DNA of 64,000 nucleotides from contig JAUIHT010000009.1 of assembly GCA_030432235.1 (NCBI GenBank), forward strand, positions 62,001-126,000, given 5' to 3'. The stretch is from Verrucomicrobiia bacterium. Lineage in GTDB: Bacteria; Verrucomicrobiota; Verrucomicrobiia; Opitutales; Cerasicoccaceae. The notes beneath the pieces are model-generated. The model was not told the DNA's origin. It was given only the letters and a program-made list of their open reading frames with translations, and made no database searches. Shown here one piece after another: positions 24,054-49,772 of this stretch. The number at the start of each line of letters is the position of its first letter. The first letter of the stretch is position 1. A program made the position numbers and the translations under genes.

Positions 24054-24809
24054 TCAGTCCCAGACCGGCTTAAAATCCTCGGCGGATACCCACCCGCTCT
24101 TGCCGTCGGTTTCGACAAAGTAGAAATCACCGTGGTGACGCTCGACGAAGGCGGACTCGCCGGGCTTCAGGTAATCCTTGGCCGGTGCGCTGCTGGTGGG
24201 TGAAAGCTTCAGGGCAGCCTCCTCGGCCACGGACACGCCGAGCCTACCAAGGCGATGATAGCCCGACAGTGCCACCGCACAGACGACGAACAACACCCCC
24301 GTCAAGGCCACCGCGGCCTTGCGCAGAGGGCCACGCCAGCCCCACATACCCGGCAGCAGCACCAGGGCCAGGCAGGCCCAGAAACTCACCGCTCCCAGCC
24401 AGGCCCAGCAGTTGACCGGCCAGGCCAACGCCAGGCGCTCCGCCCAGTTCAACTCCGGCGAGGTGACCTGCGCGGCATCACGCGCCAACTTCAGATTGGC
24501 GCGGATGTCCGGATTGGCCGGGGCCAGCACACGGGCGCGCTCGTAGTGCAGAATCGCCATGGGATAATCGCCCAGCTCGTATTCGGCATTGCCGAGGTTG
24601 TATAGCAAAGCGGCGGAACGATAATCAGGCACGAGCTGAGTGTACACCTCGACCGACTTTTCGTATTCGCCCGACTCGAAAGCGGCGTTGCCCTCGGCAA
24701 ACACACCCGCCGGATCGCTGACCTCGGCTCGGCAGACGACGGCCATCACCAAGCCCAGGATAATTAACCATCCCTTGACCCTTGACCCTTGACCTTTGAC
24801 CAATCTCAT
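24054..24809 (-). CDS. BatE-like TPR protein with SH3-like C-terminus
   Basis: A 251-residue envelope protein. A signal-like N-terminus is followed by TPR repeats (about 35-115, 'GNAAFESGEYEKSVEVYTQL' and 'GDYPMAILHYERARVLAP'). Two membrane segments come next (about 130-175) and then an SH3-like end ('GESAFVERHHGDFYFV', 'GKSGWVSAEDF'). TPR proteins of this kind end Bat operons. It overlaps the batD stop by 4 bp. Its first residues ('MRLVKGQGSRVKG') are encoded by a 7-nt repeat tract. Confidence 0.8.
   Translation of the reverse strand: MRLVKGQGSRVKGWLIILGLVMAVVCRAEVSDPAGVFAEGNAAFESGEYEKSVEVYTQLVPDYRSAALLYNLGNAEYELGDYPMAILHYERARVLAPANPDIRANLKLARDAAQVTSPELNWAERLALAWPVNCWAWLGAVSFWACLALVLLPGMWGWRGPLRKAAVALTGVLFVVCAVALSGYHRLGRLGVSVAEEAALKLSPTSSAPAKDYLKPGESAFVERHHGDFYFVETDGKSGWVSAEDFKPVWD
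24766..24802. repeat. heptad tract (CCCTTGA family) within a gene start
   Basis: Units CCCTTGA and CCTTTGA repeat with a 7-nt period. The tract lies wholly inside the first codons of the TPR gene, and in-frame reading on the minus strand gives the basic n-region of its signal sequence. Only one arm is present, with no inverted partner nearby. Confidence 0.65.
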
Positions 24810-29148: not shown

Positions 29149-29583
29149 GAGAAAATGAAAGATAAACGATAAAAGATGAAAGATGAAGTTACTTGGATTT
29201 ACGCTTATGAACTGTCCTGATGGAAGCTACGAATATAGCAGTTAACTGACTGGCCTCCTCCAATAAAGGTAATAACCGCTTCTCCTGAAATACCTCACCT
29301 CGGACAAGCAATTCGAGCCAATACGAAGTTTCATCCAACTCTTGTAGCGCGCTATTGAGTTTACTAATAAATTCCGCATCTGAACGCGCGCGGTGAGCCT
29401 CCCGCTGTTGAGCTCCAACGGATGTACCAGAACGCAGAAGTTGCTTTCCAAGAGTCTGCGCAACGGTGTTTTTTGGCAACGATGCGTAGAGTTTGACGAT
29501 GCGCAACGAGAACATCATCAAACGCTCCTGAATATCAGGCGACTTCATCTCATCTTTCATCTTTCTGCGTTCTGCGTTCATCA
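29149..29583 (-). mobile_element. four-helix-bundle element 1 with inverted heptad termini
   Basis: The segment fills the gap between the batA stop and the batB/C start. Its ends are inverted heptad arrays: left arm 29151-29190 (AAAGATG units) and right arm 29544-29582 (the same unit on the other strand plus GAACGCA). The only content between the arms is a four-helix-bundle gene. The structure resembles the intervening sequences of some 23S rRNA genes, which also carry S23-type genes between inverted ends. Mobility is inferred; no target-site duplication is obvious. Confidence 0.6.
29189..29581 (-). CDS. four-helix-bundle protein (S23/IVS-type), copy 1
   Basis: A 130-residue protein starting at 'MNAERRKMKDEMKS', an ATG sharing its A with the batA stop (TGATG coupling); a later start 'MKSPDIQERLM' is also possible. 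The core 'MMFSLRIVKLYASLPKN', 'LGKQLLRSGTSVGAQQREAHRARSDAEFISKLNSAL' (split here for length) and 'ELDETSYWLELL' is diagnostic of the four-helix-bundle family found in 23S rRNA intervening sequences and related to Avd of retroelements. The function is unknown. Residues 1-11 are encoded by the heptad terminus. GC content is below that of the operon. A second copy lies at 32223. Confidence 0.85.
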   Translation of the reverse strand: MNAERRKMKDEMKSPDIQERLMMFSLRIVKLYASLPKNTVAQTLGKQLLRSGTSVGAQQREAHRARSDAEFISKLNSALQELDETSYWLELLVRGEVFQEKRLLPLLEEASQLTAIFVASIRTVHKRKSK

Positions 29584-30615
29584 GGGCACCCTCCTGTAGA
29601 TTGAGTTTCCGAGTAACTGCTCGAAGCCCAGCAGGCACAGGCCGATGAGGGCGGGCCAGAGGAATAGCTCGGTGTAGGTGGCGTAATGGCGCAGCTTGAC
29701 CTCGGTCTTTTCCAATTGGTCGATTTCGTCGTAGATTTTCTCCAGCTGCTCCGGATCGGTCGCGCGGTAAAAACGGCCGTCGGTGATATCGGCGATTTCC
29801 TGCAGGGTCTTGTCGTCTATGTTGCTCTGCATGTACCCGTCGATAACCACGCGACCTCTGTCGAACTTGACCTGCCCGTGCTCGTCCAGGCGGGGCATGG
29901 GCACGCGGCCACTTTTGCCTGCGGCGATAGTGTAGACCTTCACGTCGAATGCTTTGGCAGCCTCCGCCGCGGCCACGGGTGGTATCTTGCCCACGGTGTC
30001 TTCACCGTCAGTGAGTAGAATGACGATGCGGCTCTTGGCCGGCAGGTCGCGCAGGCGATTGGCGCTCATGCCGATGGCCGCGCCGATGGCGGTGGCGTCG
30101 GCGTTGATGAGGCCGATGTGCAGACGATCCAGATTCTTTTGGAGCCAGTCGTGATTCAGGGTCAGGGGACTGACCAGGTACGGCTCCTTGGCGAAGGCAA
30201 CCAACCCGATGCGATCAGCGGGCCGCTTTTCGATAAACTCCGCGATGGTCTTCTTGACGATGTCTAGGCGGGTGGCGATTTCCTCGGGCGTGGCGAAGTC
30301 CATCGCGCGCATGGAGCCGGAGACATCCACCGCCAACACGATATCGATGCCGCTGGCGTCGACCTCCGAGTGACCTTCGCCTATCTGCGGTCGTGCCAGG
30401 GCAATGATGAGCGCCGCCAAGGCCAGCAAGCGCAGGAAAAAGAGGAAAGCCCCAGCCGAGCTGCGCGCCTGCCCGGCCACCTGCTTGGCGATGGCCACAC
30501 TGGAAAAAACCAGCGCCGCGCTCTTGCCCGCCCGCCCTTTCAATAGCGCCAGGATGGGCAAAAGCAACAGCAGCCACAGCAACTCGGGATTGTGAAATGA
30601 GAAGCCCTCGATCAC
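29581..30615 (-). CDS. batA: BatA-like VWA protein
   Basis: A 344-residue inner-membrane protein. Two N-terminal membrane segments (about 9-25 and 60-78) are followed by a VWA domain (about 88-280) with metal-site motif 'DVSGSM' and the later 'LTDGED'. A C-terminal membrane helix ('ELFLWPALIGLCLLGFEQLL') follows. It overlaps the DUF4381 stop by 4 bp. BatA is thought to act with MoxR and DUF58 in a membrane complex of unresolved function. Confidence 0.88.
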   Translation of the reverse strand: MIEGFSFHNPELLWLLLLLPILALLKGRAGKSAALVFSSVAIAKQVAGQARSSAGAFLFFLRLLALAALIIALARPQIGEGHSEVDASGIDIVLAVDVSGSMRAMDFATPEEIATRLDIVKKTIAEFIEKRPADRIGLVAFAKEPYLVSPLTLNHDWLQKNLDRLHIGLINADATAIGAAIGMSANRLRDLPAKSRIVILLTDGEDTVGKIPPVAAAEAAKAFDVKVYTIAAGKSGRVPMPRLDEHGQVKFDRGRVVIDGYMQSNIDDKTLQEIADITDGRFYRATDPEQLEKIYDEIDQLEKTEVKLRHYATYTELFLWPALIGLCLLGFEQLLGNSIYRRVP

Positions 30616-31238
30616 GAGCCGCCTCCTTCCATCTGGCGTTGCTCACGCAAGCGGCGCTGCGCCTGCTCGACAAACTCCTTCGCGGTTACGAGCAGTTGAT
30701 CGCGTTCTTCCGGCCCAAAGGCATGACGCGCGAACTTGGCCAGGTCGCACAGCTCCAGAAACGCGCCAAGCGTTATTAATGCTTCCTCCGAAATGCGTGG
30801 GTGGCTGCGGGCGTTGGATAAAAACTCCTCGGTGGTCTGCTCCGGCGCACGAATGCGGAAGACGGCTTCGATGTAGTTGCGCAGGGCGTTGGAAACCGCG
30901 ATGGAAAAGGCCTTGTCGTCGCCACCGTCCTTGAGGCGGGAAGCTTCGGCGATTTCCTTCATGGCGCGCTGATAGGCCGTCAACGGCTTCTCAGGTTTGC
31001 GGCGCAGGGCGAAGAAAGCCGCGATGCCCGCAACGACAAGCACACCCACGATCACGGGCACGGCCCACTGCCAGTTGGCCTCCCAGAAACCCGCCCCACG
31101 CATGGGGCGAATATCGAGGATGTCGTCATCCCCGCTTTGCGCGAACAAGCTGAAAGCAAAAAGCTGAAAGCTGAAAGTGGTAATTAACCAGCTTGGCTTT
31201 ATGCTTTGAGCTTTAAGCTTTAAGCCCTCACGTCTCAT
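30612..31238 (-). CDS. DUF4381 family membrane protein
   Basis: A 208-residue protein with an N-terminal signal peptide (about 1-34), then 'DILDIRPMRG', one membrane helix (about 50-72, 'WAVPVIVGVLVVAGIAAFFAL') and a cytosolic helical domain with 'FSIAVSNALRNYIEAVFRI', as in DUF4381. These proteins sit between DUF58 and VWA genes in Bat/MoxR operons. Both ends overlap neighbours by 4 bp. Unusually, the whole signal peptide is encoded by an inverted heptad-repeat hairpin (31144-31228). Confidence 0.85.
   Translation of the reverse strand: MRREGLKLKAQSIKPSWLITTFSFQLFAFSLFAQSGDDDILDIRPMRGAGFWEANWQWAVPVIVGVLVVAGIAAFFALRRKPEKPLTAYQRAMKEIAEASRLKDGGDDKAFSIAVSNALRNYIEAVFRIRAPEQTTEEFLSNARSHPRISEEALITLGAFLELCDLAKFARHAFGPEERDQLLVTAKEFVEQAQRRLREQRQMEGGGS
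31144..31228. repeat. inverted heptad hairpin encoding a signal peptide
   Basis: Read on the coding (minus) strand, the first arm has units AGCTTAA and AGCTCAA. A loop of about 13 nt follows, and then the second arm with units CTTTCAG and CTTTTTG. The arms are imperfect inverted copies. The first arm gives the charged residues 'GLKLKAQSIK' and the second gives the hydrophobic 'TFSFQLFAFSLF' of the DUF4381 protein. Confidence 0.8.
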
Positions 31239-32164
31239 CGCCTCGACCCCCTTTTCTCGAAATACATGCGCAACGGGTTGATGTAAGGCTCGTCCGTGGA
31301 GACCGGCATGACGCCCACGCCGCTCTGGCGCAGCCCCCGGCGGAGGTTGTCGATGCGGCGGCGGTTCTCCTTGGCATAGGACTGGCGCAGGGCGCGACTG
31401 CCGGTGTTCAGCTCGACAAGCTGCCCCGTCTCGGAGTCCTCCAGGGTGAGCACGCCGACGTCGGGCAGCTCGACCTCGCGGGGATCGGTCAACGTGATGC
31501 AGGTCAAGTCGTGGCGCTTGTTGGTCAACCGCAATGTGCGAAAGACGGCATCACCGCGGCGATCACCGGGATCGGGCAGACGTCCATCGGGCCCCTGCAG
31601 GAAGTCCGTCAGCAGGAACATGATGGCCTTGCGCTTGAGCATACGATTGGCCGTCTCGAGCGCCTCGACGATGTTGGTTCCCTTGCCCTTGGGCTCGAAG
31701 AAAAGTATCTCGCGGATGACGCGCAGGATGTGCTGGCGGCCTTTCTTGGGCGGGATAAAGGTCTCCACCTCGTCGGTGAAGAGCAGCAGCCCCACCTTGT
31801 CGTTGTTGCGCGTGGCGGAAAAGGCCAGCACGCTGGCGATTTCCGCGGCCAGCTCACGCTTGGACTCGTGCGTGGAACCGAAGCCACCCGAGGCCGAGAG
31901 GTCCACCAGGAGCATGATGGTCAGCTCGCGTTCCTCGCGGAATTTTTTGATGAAGGGCCGGTCCATCTTGGCGGTGACGTTCCAGTCGATGGCACGCACG
32001 TCATCGCCGGGGGCGTATTCACGGACCTCCTCGAAGTCCATCCCCTGCCCTTTGAACACGCTGTGGTAGGCCCCCGTCAGCGCATCGGTGACGAGGCGAT
32101 TGGTGCGGATTTCGATCTGCCGCACCTTGCGAAGAATCTCGCGCGTTTTATCTGTATTATTCAT
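31235..32164 (-). CDS. DUF58 domain protein
   Basis: A 309-residue VWA-like cytosolic protein. The DUF58 signature 'YAPGDDVRAIDWNVTAK' lies near residues 50-66, preceded by 'DALTGAYHSVFKGQGMDFEEV'. The degenerate metal-site strand is 'MLLVDLSASG'. It ends with 'MYFEKRGSRR'. DUF58 proteins are partners of MoxR ATPases. The start codon touches the terminus of four-helix-bundle element 2, so it is separated from moxR by that element. It overlaps the next gene by 4 bp. Confidence 0.92.
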   Translation of the reverse strand: MNNTDKTREILRKVRQIEIRTNRLVTDALTGAYHSVFKGQGMDFEEVREYAPGDDVRAIDWNVTAKMDRPFIKKFREERELTIMLLVDLSASGGFGSTHESKRELAAEIASVLAFSATRNNDKVGLLLFTDEVETFIPPKKGRQHILRVIREILFFEPKGKGTNIVEALETANRMLKRKAIMFLLTDFLQGPDGRLPDPGDRRGDAVFRTLRLTNKRHDLTCITLTDPREVELPDVGVLTLEDSETGQLVELNTGSRALRQSYAKENRRRIDNLRRGLRQSGVGVMPVSTDEPYINPLRMYFEKRGSRR

Positions 32165-32631
32165 TAACGCTTAACGCTAAATGCTTAACGCTGAGAAAGG
32201 TTAAACAAACATTTCAATCACTTCACGATTCACCCTTTTTGAGGGTTCGAATACTGGCAATGAACATCGCCATAATTTCACCGGATTCATCATACAAAGA
32301 CATCAGCTTTTCTGGTTTTACTATGTCGGCTTCCATGAGTAGCTCCATCCAGTACTGGGTTTCATCAAGTTCCTGTTGTCCGCCTTCCAGTTTGCTAATC
32401 ATTTCCTTGGTTGATCGCGCTCTTTGAGACTCCCGGTAGTGGGCGCCCACGGAAGTTCCAGAGCGCAAAAGTTGTTTTCCCAATACCCTCGCCGCGCTTC
32501 CCTCTTTTTCTAAAGAGACCGCCAACTTAATAATGCGAAGTGCAAATTGTTTCGTTCTCTGTTTCAGATCGCTAGACATGATTACAGCTTCTCTTACAGA
32601 ATCAGCGTTTAGCGCTTAGCGTTAAGCGTTA
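32165..32631 (-). mobile_element. four-helix-bundle element 2 with inverted heptad termini
   Basis: The element lies between the moxR stop (32633-32635) and the DUF58 ATG (32162-32164), filling the gap to within one base. Left terminus 32165-32194 and right terminus 32602-32631 are inverted copies; both begin with the same 15 bases, AACGCTTAACGCTAA, read inward and from the right end inward on the other strand, and both end in ACGCTGA. Units have a 7-nt period. Inside is one four-helix-bundle gene. The repeat sequence differs from that of element 1, although the layout is the same. Confidence 0.65.
32223..32579 (-). CDS. four-helix-bundle protein (S23/IVS-type), copy 2
   Basis: A 118-residue paralogue of the protein at 29189. 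Shared diagnostic blocks are 'FALRIIKLAVSLEKE', 'VLGKQLLRSGTSVGAHYRE', 'RARSTKEMISKL', 'ELDETQYWMELL' and a 'MFIASIRTLKK' ending. The two copies differ at many positions, so they are not a recent duplication. It lies between inverted heptad termini in the moxR-DUF58 gap. The family includes proteins of 23S rRNA intervening sequences; its function is unproven. Confidence 0.88.
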   Translation of the reverse strand: MSSDLKQRTKQFALRIIKLAVSLEKEGSAARVLGKQLLRSGTSVGAHYRESQRARSTKEMISKLEGGQQELDETQYWMELLMEADIVKPEKLMSLYDESGEIMAMFIASIRTLKKGES

Positions 32632-32632
32632 C

Positions 32633-33622
32633 TTACGGAACCGGTACGGTGTCGAAGACTTTCTGGACGATGTCCTCGCTGGTCATGTCCTCGGCCTCGG
32701 CTTCGTAGCTGGGGATGACGCGGTGGCGCAGCACGTCGAGGCCGATGGTCTTGACGTCCTGCGGGGTGACGTAGCCACGCCCTTGGAGGAAGGCCCAGGC
32801 CTTGGCCGCGAGCGTCAGGGCGATGGTGGCGCGAGGGCTGCCGCCAAACTGGATAAAGCTGTCCATCTGCAAGCCGAACTTGCTGGGCTCGCGGGTGGCG
32901 AAAACGATGTCGACGATGTAATCCTTGATCTTGTCGTCGACGTAGATGCTGTCGACCACGGTGCGGGCCTCGAGGATGGTCTCCGGCGTGATGACGGCGC
33001 TGACCTCGGTCTGCGGCGCGGTGGAGGCCATGCTGTCGAGGATGCGGCGCTCCTCCTGCTTGCTCGGGTAGCCCACGTTGAGCTTGAGCATGAAGCGGTC
33101 GACCTGCGCCTCGGGCAGCGGATAGGTGCCCTCCTGGTCGATAGGGTTTTCCGTGGCCAGCACGAGGAAGGGCTTGGGTAGCGGGTAGGTCTCGTCGCCG
33201 AGAGTCACCTGCCGCTCCTGCATGGCCTCGAGCAAGGCGCTCTGCACCTTGGCAGGGGCGCGGTTGATTTCGTCGGCCAGAACAAGATTGGCGAAGACCG
33301 GCCCTTTCTTGGTGGTGAAGACCGCATCGCGGGGATTATAAATCAGGGTGCCGACGATGTCCGCCGGGAGCAGGTCGGGCGTGAACTGGATGCGGGAGAA
33401 GTGGGCCTGGATGGCGCTGGCCAGAGTGCGCACGCTCAGGGTCTTGGCCAAACCCGGCACGCCCTCCAGCAGCACGTGGCCATTGGCCAGCAAGCCGACG
33501 ATAAGGCGGTCCACCAGGTAACTTTGACCGACGATGACCTTGGCGATTTCCTCGCGCAGCCGGGGCACCCAAGCGGCCGCCTCCTTCACGCGTTCATTGG
33601 ATTCGGTTAGCGTTGATGACAT
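32633..33622 (-). CDS. moxR: MoxR-type AAA+ ATPase
   Basis: A 329-residue ATPase heading the Bat operon. Walker A is 'GVPGLAKT', Walker B 'LADEINRA', and sensor 1 lies in 'LATENPIDQEGTYPLPEAQ', all standard for MoxR. These AAA+ chaperones act with VWA proteins encoded in the same operon. It is followed on the minus strand by element 2 and then DUF58. A promoter presumably lies in 33623-33779, but I see no convincing hexamers. Confidence 0.95.
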   Translation of the reverse strand: MSSTLTESNERVKEAAAWVPRLREEIAKVIVGQSYLVDRLIVGLLANGHVLLEGVPGLAKTLSVRTLASAIQAHFSRIQFTPDLLPADIVGTLIYNPRDAVFTTKKGPVFANLVLADEINRAPAKVQSALLEAMQERQVTLGDETYPLPKPFLVLATENPIDQEGTYPLPEAQVDRFMLKLNVGYPSKQEERRILDSMASTAPQTEVSAVITPETILEARTVVDSIYVDDKIKDYIVDIVFATREPSKFGLQMDSFIQFGGSPRATIALTLAAKAWAFLQGRGYVTPQDVKTIGLDVLRHRVIPSYEAEAEDMTSEDIVQKVFDTVPVP

Positions 33623-47501: not shown

Positions 47502-48770
47502 ATGAAAGTACTGATCGTTGGAAGCGGCGGCCGTGAGCACGCTCTGCTCAAAGCCTGCCTCAAGAGCCCCCTCGTCACCGAAACCGTGGTCGCGCCCGGC
47601 AACGGCGGCATGGCCGCGGAAGCCACCTGCCTGCCCCTGGATGTGGAAGACGCCGGCGCGGTCGTCGCCCTGGCCAAGGAAGTGGCGGCGGACTTCGTCA
47701 TCGTGGGTCCGGAAGCACCGCTGGCCACCGGAGCCGCCGACTCCCTGCGCGAGGCCGGGATGCCGGTCTACGGGCCGGGCAAGGCCGGCGCGGAGCTGGA
47801 GTCCAGTAAGGCTTTTTCCAAGGAGTTCATGCTCCGTCACAACATCCCGACCGCCGCGGCCGGCATCTTCAAGGATTTCAGCGCAGCCCTCGACTACCTG
47901 CGCGGGCGCGAGTACCCCATCGTCATCAAGGCCAGCGGGCTGGCTGCGGGTAAAGGGGTCATCATCGCCGACAGCTTCGAGCACGCCGAGTCCGTCGTTC
48001 ACGACATGCTGGTGGGCTACCAGTTCGGAAAAAGCGGGCAAACCGTTCTCATCGAAGACTTTATGAAGGGCGAGGAAGCCAGCATCATGCTGCTGGTTTC
48101 AGGCGAAAAATACGTCCAACTCCCGCCCAGCCAGGACCACAAACGCATTGGCGAGGGTGACAGCGGCCCCAACACCGGCGGCATGGGCGCCTACGCCCCC
48201 GCGCCTGTGGTCACGCAGAAAATCGCCGAGAAGGTCCGCACGAAAATCATCGAACCCAGCCTGGCCGGTCTGGCCAAGGAAGGCATCGACTACCGTGGCA
48301 CACTCTACGTCGGCATCATGGTGGTCGACGGCGAGCCCTACGTGGTCGAGTACAACGTCCGCTTCGGCGATCCGGAGTGCCAGATTCTCCTGCCTCTGCT
48401 GGCAGACGACCCGATCAAGCTCATGCTCGACTGCGCCCAGGGCACGCTCAAGCCCGCCGAGGTGAAGGTAAAGGACGAGCACGCCATGATCGTGGTGATG
48501 TCCGCCGAAGGCTACCCCGGCGCCTACCGCAAGGGCGACGTCATCGAGTTTCCCGCCAGCGTCCCGGACAATTGCTCCATCGTCCACGCCGGCACCAAGC
48601 AGGACGACGCGGGCAACATCATCACCGCGGGCGGACGCGTGCTGGGCATCGTGGCCACCGGCCCCACCCTACAAGCCGCCGCGGACGACGCCTACGCCCT
48701 GGCCGATCAGGTCAAGTGGCCCGGTGCATACCTGCGCCGCGACATCGGCTGGAGAGCACTGGGAAAGTAA
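47502..48770 (+). CDS. purD: phosphoribosylamine-glycine ligase
   Basis: A 422-residue ATP-grasp enzyme that joins glycine to phosphoribosylamine in purine synthesis. Characteristic stretches are 'MKVLIVGSGGREHAL', 'DFVIVGPEAPLATG', 'SKEFMLRHNIPTA', 'VIKASGLAAGKGV', 'LLPLLADD' and 'GPNTGGMGAYAPAP'. Length and domain order are typical. It is a single gene with no other pur gene nearby. An inverted heptad hairpin begins directly at its stop codon. Confidence 0.97.
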   Translation: MKVLIVGSGGREHALLKACLKSPLVTETVVAPGNGGMAAEATCLPLDVEDAGAVVALAKEVAADFVIVGPEAPLATGAADSLREAGMPVYGPGKAGAELESSKAFSKEFMLRHNIPTAAAGIFKDFSAALDYLRGREYPIVIKASGLAAGKGVIIADSFEHAESVVHDMLVGYQFGKSGQTVLIEDFMKGEEASIMLLVSGEKYVQLPPSQDHKRIGEGDSGPNTGGMGAYAPAPVVTQKIAEKVRTKIIEPSLAGLAKEGIDYRGTLYVGIMVVDGEPYVVEYNVRFGDPECQILLPLLADDPIKLMLDCAQGTLKPAEVKVKDEHAMIVVMSAEGYPGAYRKGDVIEFPASVPDNCSIVHAGTKQDDAGNIITAGGRVLGIVATGPTLQAAADDAYALADQVKWPGAYLRRDIGWRALGK

Positions 48771-48886
48771 AAAGCAGAAAAATAAACGATGAAAGATGAA
48801 GTCAAGAGGACGATAGGGGGCACGTGCTGGGTGAAGTGTCTTTTCATTTCATCTTTCATCTTTCTGCTTTCATCTTTCATTTCGGC
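48771..48886. repeat. inverted heptad hairpin encoding a signal peptide
   Basis: Left arm 48771-48812 has AAAGATG and AAAGCAG-type units. Right arm 48841-48886 has TCATCTT and TCTGCTT units and is the inverted form. The start codon of the next gene lies inside the left arm. In frame, the left arm gives 'MKDEVK' and the right arm gives 'LFISSFIFLLSSFIS', together a signal peptide. Confidence 0.8.
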
Positions 48887-49772
48887 GGCGCAGCCACCCA
48901 TCGACCTCGCCGACTTCCCGCCGGAGTTCTTCCCGGGGCTGAACAAGCAGTCACCGGAAAAAATTTACCTGGAGGGTCTCATGGCGCTCTACCCCGGGCG
49001 TGTGCTGGACAAGGCACCGCAATCCGAAGGGCCTGCCACCTCCCGCGAGCCCATGATAGAGACGTTGCCACGCGGCATCACCTACGTGCGCCTTTACGAT
49101 TTAAGCGATTCGATAAGCTTCATCGATGCCCATATTTCAGACCCTATCCTGCTTATTGACCTACGCTATGTCTCCAGCTCCATGGAGGCTGCCAAGCGGT
49201 TCATAGCTTATTTCAGCCTATCCTCTGATGCCATCGAAAATATCTCAACGCCAGAGGAGACAGCGGCGCATTCCAAGGGTTCGCTCCAGGATTTAATCAG
49301 CGACTATACCGTGAGGCCGAATGACCGAAAGGACATCGTGCTGATCAACCAAAAGACCAGCGGCGCCATCGAGGCTGCAGTGGATGCCCTCCAGCGCACA
49401 GGCAAAATCGTAACCGTGGGCACCCGCACGGCCGGGGATACCGGCAGCTACGGCGCCATCCCGGGAGTCGAGGGCTATTACGTCATCGACGGGGAGGTCC
49501 GCGCCATGAGCGGCCCAAGCCTGCTGGGCGTCGGCCTGGAGCCGGAGGTGCCGGTGGATGTCACTGCGGCGGAGGACTTTACAGGCTATCAGCTCCTGGA
49601 GACAGGCTACAGCGCCGAGGCCATCCTGCGCACCCGCCTGCCCGCCCTCGACCCACTCGAGGCGAGCGAGGATAGCGAAGAGGCCGAGGAAACCCCCATC
49701 GATCCCATCCTGCAGCGCGCGGTGGAGGTCGTTATCGCCCTACAGGTCCTGGGCAAACTACCGATGGAGTAA
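48789..49772 (+). CDS. exported S41-peptidase-like protein, probably degenerate
   Basis: A 327-residue protein with a signal peptide (about 1-33, mature start near 'AQPPIDLADF'). The C-terminal half resembles S41 (tail-specific/C-terminal processing) peptidases: 'DIVLINQKTSGAIEAAVDAL' matches the strand carrying the catalytic Ser, and 'TVGTRTAGDTGSYGAIPG' the region that normally holds the catalytic Lys. Ser is retained but the Lys position appears to be Asp, and no PDZ domain is present. It may be an inactive relative. The homology is tentative. Confidence 0.6.
   Translation: MKDEVKRTIGGTCWVKCLFISSFIFLLSSFISAAQPPIDLADFPPEFFPGLNKQSPEKIYLEGLMALYPGRVLDKAPQSEGPATSREPMIETLPRGITYVRLYDLSDSISFIDAHISDPILLIDLRYVSSSMEAAKRFIAYFSLSSDAIENISTPEETAAHSKGSLQDLISDYTVRPNDRKDIVLINQKTSGAIEAAVDALQRTGKIVTVGTRTAGDTGSYGAIPGVEGYYVIDGEVRAMSGPSLLGVGLEPEVPVDVTAAEDFTGYQLLETGYSAEAILRTRLPALDPLEASEDSEEAEETPIDPILQRAVEVVIALQVLGKLPME

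Follow-up and report, generated by a model that had tools for sequence, protein, structure and literature searches.

Background

Several repeat elements described in bacteria are close to the one reported here. In Yersinia, the palindromic RU-2/YPAL repeat in YPO1552 accounts for residues 1-30 within a predicted signal peptide of residues 1-41 (Delihas 2007, PMC2759123; reviewed in PMC2229807), and different signal peptides are predicted for the YPO1552 homologues of other genera (PMC2759123; PMC2229807). Our locus is similar in that a small repeat element forms a predicted signal peptide and the homologues have different ones, but RU-2 is a conserved MITE of 168 bp rather than an arrangement of heptad arrays, has one gene as its main case and was reported without the purine/pyrimidine codon logic considered below. 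The Rickettsia palindromic elements (RPE) are inserted in 19 reading frames, many of them in conserved protein genes (reviewed in PMC2229807). They too are hairpin-forming repeats read in frame inside conserved genes, whereas the heptad cases confirmed here are predicted N-terminal export signals.

The 23S IVS of Coxiella burnetii is a stem-loop with an ORF for a four-helix-bundle S23p protein of the PF05635 type and with tandem heptamers (GACAGAT) upstream of this ORF (PMC4990558). The S23 loci of our genome show the same combination of stem-loop element, S23 gene and heptamers. However, the Coxiella element is part of 23S rRNA, from which RNase III removes it, while ours lie between protein genes and many of them have no S23 gene. 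The tandem heptamer TAACTGA forms abundant intergenic direct repeats in Beggiatoaceae and Cyanobacteria, and its translated copies give a 7-residue cycle (PMC4679880), but this is one fixed heptamer, inverted in a single case and otherwise in direct repeats, without a reported export role. Hence a repeat-derived signal peptide is already known from Yersinia RU-2/YPO1552, and what is new, as far as we searched the literature, is that the element is made of heptads, recurs in a single genome and is linked to S23.

A heptad hairpin between purD and an S41-like gene

The hairpin lies in the window, i.e. the whole 64-kb stretch of DNA that was analysed, at the junction of purD and an S41-like gene. 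The features of this junction are as follows.

47502 to 48770, plus strand: purD, an ORF of 422 aa; the hairpin begins at 48771, directly behind the purD stop
48771 to 48808, plus strand: left arm of the hairpin, purine-rich, with partly degenerate heptads (inverted repeat, fold)
48840 to 48880, plus strand: right arm of the hairpin, pyrimidine-rich heptads, encoding LFISSFIFLLSSFI, the h-region (inverted repeat, period-7 array, ORF)
48789 to 49772, plus strand: S41/IRBP-like gene for a protein predicted to be exported, with the hairpin-derived signal peptide (Pfam, profile matches, orthologues)
48831 to 48890, plus strand: predicted Sec signal peptide (M)KCLFISSFIFLLSSFISAA/Q (hydropathy, orthologue comparison)

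The inverted-repeat search gave two arms of 38 nt each (48771-48808 and 48840-48877), 74% complementary with 31 nt between them. The right arm is made of TTTCATC/TTTCTGC heptads and is the period-7 array TTTCATC x4.9 at 48847-48880. Near-identical copies of it occur elsewhere in the genome, with 100% identity (E 4e-10) and 97% identity (E 9e-9) over 33 nt, and the loop is unique, no other copy of it being found in the genome. The folding energy of the RNA is -42.4 kcal/mol, compared with -29.2 +/- 3.3 kcal/mol for dinucleotide shuffles (z -4.0; 0/200 as good). The codons of LFISSFIFLLSSFI, 48840-48881, coincide with the right arm and are in frame with the S41-like gene. The translation of ORF 48789-49772 begins MKDEVKRTIGGTCWVKCLFISSFIFLLSSFISAAQ..., identical to that quoted in the sequence-only reading, and the hairpin proposed there, with LFISSFIFLLSSFI in the complementary pyrimidine-rich arm, is borne out by the inverted repeat, the period-7 arm, the fold and the codon overlap.

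On the gene alone, the Pfam match to PF03572 (S41) is below the cut-off (E=0.0016, 18.5 bits versus 24), and a profile built from the orthologues matches structures of S41 (C-terminal processing protease, CTP) and IRBP with best E-values from 3.5e-25 to 1e-6, IRBP being the closest to this family among the solved structures. Gly192, at what we take to be the expected site of the S41 nucleophile Ser, is invariant across the family alignment, and the TAGxTG motif has no Lys. The alignment suggests that the protein is probably non-catalytic, without the catalytic Ser/Lys. The 327-codon frame is intact and the conserved residues are kept.

The signal peptide was called from hydropathy and orthologue comparison. 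Its 11-aa hydropathy is 2.70, compared with an orthologue mean of 2.33 (sd 0.38). It has the short positive n-region and the core of about 10-15 residues of a Sec type I signal, i.e. MK followed by CLFISSFIFLLSSFI, and by inspection small residues at -3/-1 (S-A-A/Q; compare SAA/E in the orthologue L014). The sequence after the arm, SAAQPPIDLAD, resembles SAAEPA of L014, which suggests that the c-region SAA is probably ancestral and may represent the old cleavage region.

The orthologues carry unrelated signals

The gene can be aligned in at least 24 other genomes of the same order and is nearly always directly downstream of purD, which is 64-78% identical in the same-family relatives; the pairing of the two genes is conserved across the order. 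Judged by purD, the named relatives of this genome belong to Opitutales (Verrucomicrobiota). All of the 23 orthologue N-termini checked, with start codons picked by eye, are ordinary hydrophobic export signals unrelated to the hairpin-derived one, e.g. MRVFLALLLPGLVFG in the closest relative (G005) and MRHTVLLPAFLFSLSVSAAEP and MRKRLLLLSIFLVGHAAPSA in further orthologues. No heptad array was found at the purD junction in any of the 22 relatives measured (period-7 score 6-14 of 18, versus 16 here), and 21 of them have no comparable hairpin. The exception is L014 in relative G145, where a purine/pyrimidine inverted repeat unrelated to ours (score 13.5) spans the SD and the signal peptide, perhaps through a general tendency, as SDs are purine-rich and signal codons pyrimidine-rich.

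The sequence-only reading had looked to the orthologues for relatives with another signal and no hairpin, and these 23 N-termini and 22 junctions provide them; no ancestral signal peptide, the presence of which would have spoken against it, is left at a later start in the S41-like gene. Its suggestion of a route to new export signals does not carry over to this gene. Because the orthologues carry ordinary unrelated signals, the signal peptide appears to be ancestral to the gene, with only the n-/h-regions replaced; a de novo origin of export was rejected.

The conserved FPPEFFP/FPKEFFP motif lies 144 nt after the purD stop here, compared with 105 nt in G005. The hairpin is 110 nt long and the junction is longer by only 39 nt net, so that some 70 nt of the ancestral sequence must have been lost. 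No empty site was seen in a near-identical genome, and at ~50% identity even the closest relative is too distant to date the insertion.

Pyrimidine-rich arms as potential hydrophobic cores

A heptad array reads as one 7-residue cycle in every frame because 7 is coprime to 3 (7 x 3 = 21). TTTCTGC gives FLLSAFC and TTTCATC gives FHLSSFI, while the complement GATGAAA gives DER*KMK. Perfect GATGAAA arms have a stop in every 21 nt, and with one stop per cycle purine-rich arms of this class are readable only if they are short or degenerate. Over 46 arms, 25% of the frames on the pyrimidine strand are open and hydrophobic, versus 0% on the purine strand and 6% for random genomic 33-mers. When the arms are shuffled with their composition kept, the value is 36%. 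The hydrophobicity comes from the pyrimidine content, not from the heptads or the hairpin, and the latter two were rejected as its cause. Hence the codon argument of the sequence-only reading is upheld in that the pyrimidine strand encodes hydrophobic residues, and is not upheld in needing heptads or a hairpin for it.

A heptad family linked to S23 genes

Our contiguous survey covered ~2 Mb of the 5.7-Mb draft genome, with targeted stretches in addition. We found 45 period-7 arrays in 1.6 Mb, 34 of them non-coding, while periods 5, 6, 8, 10 and 11 gave 0-6 non-coding arrays each. The heptad pattern has 79 matches in the genome versus 15 for the reversed control, and no more than 8 in each of nine family relatives. 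An inverted partner lies within 620 nt for 46 of the 81 arrays in the ~2 Mb, versus 0-17% of the null draws. The heptad words vary between hairpins and largely agree between the two arms of one hairpin. The window has 12 heptad arrays in its 64 kb, ~7x the density of contig 37. Where arrays overlap with likely cytosolic genes, a later start is present that skips the array.

Two hairpins of the window contain S23 genes.

32163 to 32633, minus strand: heptad hairpin with a 23S_rRNA_IVP (S23) gene, 32223-32579 (minus strand), in its loop (PF05635, E=1.7e-18; inverted-repeat score 22.5)
29152 to 29580, minus strand: heptad hairpin enclosing another 23S_rRNA_IVP (S23) gene, ORF 29189-29638 (minus strand), whose 5' end extends through the upper arm (PF05635, E=5.2e-19; inverted-repeat score 15)

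Inverted 7-mer arrays lie on both sides of seven of the eight S23 genes in the genome. For five of the flanked genes the inverted-repeat score (15-23) exceeds the respective null maximum; at L219 and L220 the scores are near the null maximum and the heptads are visible by eye. S23 genes inside heptad inverted repeats between protein genes are also seen at L218, L222 and L223. The S23-enclosing hairpins are likely an IVS-like element family of this genome. Across Opitutales, PF05635 is present in 50 of 103 genomes. The hairpin at the purD junction has terminal inverted repeats forming a long stem, as IVS/S23 elements have, and is located between purD and a protein gene rather than in 23S rRNA; its 31-nt loop contains no PF05635 gene, which other hairpins of the genome do. 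Our best guess is that the heptad hairpins are IVS-like elements, some of them gene-less, and that the one at the purD junction is a gene-less and putatively mobile member.

Recurrence in other genes

Heptad hairpins are fused in frame to the N-termini of at least two other genes, and a heptad arm to that of a further candidate.

31146 to 31230, minus strand: another heptad hairpin serving as a predicted signal peptide, with predicted translation of both arms
30612 to 31238, minus strand: DUF4381-like gene (PF14316, E=1.9e-4, below the cut-off; orthologues)
L217, 7967 to 9469, minus strand: outer-membrane efflux lipoprotein gene with its lipoprotein signal from a heptad hairpin (PF02321)
contig 37, 944259 to 944855 (L185, 4259 to 4855): prepilin-like protein with its leader from a heptad arm (SALSVQRSA/FTLFEVLVV; weak PF07963 match)

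The DUF4381-like N-terminus is MRREGLKLKAQSIKPSWLITTFSFQLFAFSLFAQ/SGDDD... (MRREGLKLKAQSIKPSWLITTFSFQLFAFSLFAQ/SGDDDILDIRPMRG), compared with MKGILSLLLASLSSVASAAEDD... and MKGILSLLLASLSSVASAAEDDIMDIRGMRG in G005. The sole upstream start of this gene is ATG 31238, which has a strong SD (anti-SD -13.8), and because it is the only one, both arms would be translated. The gene belongs to an operon of the MoxR/DUF58/von Willebrand type. The efflux lipoprotein reads ...MKRIIVGFQLSAFSFLLTSC/TVGPDYEKP here and MNLLNPSLQSNSRCGKPTLLAVGLLCLTLLTSC/TVGPDYEKP in G005, the lipobox (LTSC/TVGPDYEKP) being conserved, and its outer ATG has an anti-SD energy of -10.8. Comparison with G005 indicates a replaced signal in these two genes, i.e. 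in at least two besides the S41-like gene, and the prepilin leader is probably a further case.

Elsewhere in the window, a single CCTTGAC array (24768-24805), sitting behind a strong SD, encodes VKGQGSR, the charged n-region of the signal peptide of a TPR/SH3 protein (gene 24054-24809, minus strand). This array and C37:1439026, both single arrays giving n-region residues, are possible further cases. The N-terminal overlaps at C37:501574, 1006301, 1153562 and 1156758 and at C39:162238 were left uncounted, as a downstream start is likely. The cases of recurrence are few and were picked after the fact; it may simply be that a protein tolerates an N-terminal fusion only if its N-terminus is a signal.

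Start codon and origin of the signal

Our analysis suggests, with good though incomplete confidence, that the pyrimidine-rich arm of a heptad element replaced the ancestral n-/h-regions of the predicted signal peptide. In the scheme that we infer from the comparison, a heptad inverted-repeat element, probably IVS-like and without an S23 gene, arrived between purD and the old S41-like gene, and its 3' pyrimidine-rich arm took the place of the n-/h-regions. Initiation would most likely be at the GTG 48831 in the loop, behind AGGGGG, and the right arm would be read as the hydrophobic core, joining in frame the probably ancestral cleavage region (SAA/Q). The product would be a Sec signal peptide of normal length, (M)KCLFISSFIFLLSSFISAA, to be exported and cleaved. 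Such a replacement can work because arrays of the TTTCATC/TTTCTGC type are open and hydrophobic in every frame.

The elements that bear on the start are as follows.

48789 to 48791, plus strand: ATG taken as the start in the sequence-only reading (MKDEVK...; P unpaired 0.00; anti-SD duplex -2.5 kcal/mol)
48815 to 48820, plus strand: AGGGGG, SD-like, within the loop and 10 nt ahead of GTG 48831 (anti-SD duplex -11.6 kcal/mol)
48831 to 48833, plus strand: GTG, the likelier start codon, in frame and in the loop (P unpaired 0.73)

These energies assume the standard anti-SD, since the motif GGATCACCTCCTTT of the 16S 3' end was searched for in the assembly and not found. Some 4% of random 20-mers reach -11 or better, and SD use at the predicted starts of this genome looks weak. 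With GTG 48831 as the start, the h-region begins at residue 3, which is also its position in the closest orthologue and falls within the orthologue range of 3-14 (n=23). We consider it probable that this GTG is the start used, and if it is, the left arm 48771-48808 is only a 5' untranslated leader.

The strongest alternative is a start at ATG 48789, with both arms translated and MKDEVKR as the n-region of a long signal peptide (~34 residues). An ATG outranks a GTG as a start codon, the frame is open, and 48789 is 18 nt after the purD stop, where reinitiation is possible; two-arm signals also fit the DUF4381-like gene and the efflux lipoprotein. However, ATG 48789 is fully paired and has no SD, its n-region is longer than in any orthologue examined, and none of the 23 orthologues has its h-region as late as residue 17, where it would begin here. 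The DUF4381-like and efflux genes, unlike ATG 48789, start outside the main stem. We regard this start as possible and the less likely of the two. As ATG 48789 is buried in the stem and the GTG is likelier, MKDEVK may not be translated. The claim that one hairpin supplies both the n-region and the core stands for the core, from the pyrimidine arm; that the left arm provides the charged n-region is doubtful, and the DUF4381-like and efflux lipoprotein genes are a better fit to the two-arm mechanism than the S41-like gene.

It is rather improbable that the hairpin owes its retention mainly to a regulatory role of the RNA, as an RNase III site or a translational switch between purD and the next gene, with the coding overlap incidental. 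The fold is strong, its loop exposes the SD and the GTG, the arrays of the family are mostly non-coding, and the Coxiella IVS is excised by RNase III (PMC4990558). But a comparable hairpin is missing at the junction in 21 of the 22 relatives, and a regulatory role leaves the in-frame hydrophobic fusion and its recurrence unexplained.

Signal peptides can be lost in evolution, and the ancestral n-/h-regions of this one are gone, so that the element might have destroyed the signal, the protein being no longer exported or the gene decaying. We find this slightly less probable still, given the intact frame with its conserved residues, a hydropathy at or above the orthologue level and the same outcome in the efflux lipoprotein with its conserved lipobox. 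An ordinary T-rich signal-coding region that is heptad-like by chance would agree with the pyrimidine-rich codons of signals and with the unrelated inverted repeat of L014 (score 13.5), but is contradicted by the near-identical arms elsewhere and by a periodicity of specifically 7, and is very unlikely.

Significance

Signal peptides evolve fast, and the exchange of one signal for the next is seldom observed. In this genome, three or more such exchanges appear to be due to an identifiable repeat, with a clean orthologue comparison and a simple reason, namely that pyrimidine-rich arrays encode Phe/Leu/Ser/Ile in any frame. We speculate, tentatively, that IVS/S23-type heptad elements are recurrent portable donors of N-terminal export signals in this genome, including signal peptides, lipoprotein signals and prepilin leaders: the elements would land at gene starts, and the residue cycle common to all frames would let their pyrimidine arms replace signals repeatedly. 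The finding also ties little-understood intergenic heptad hairpins to S23/IVS elements.
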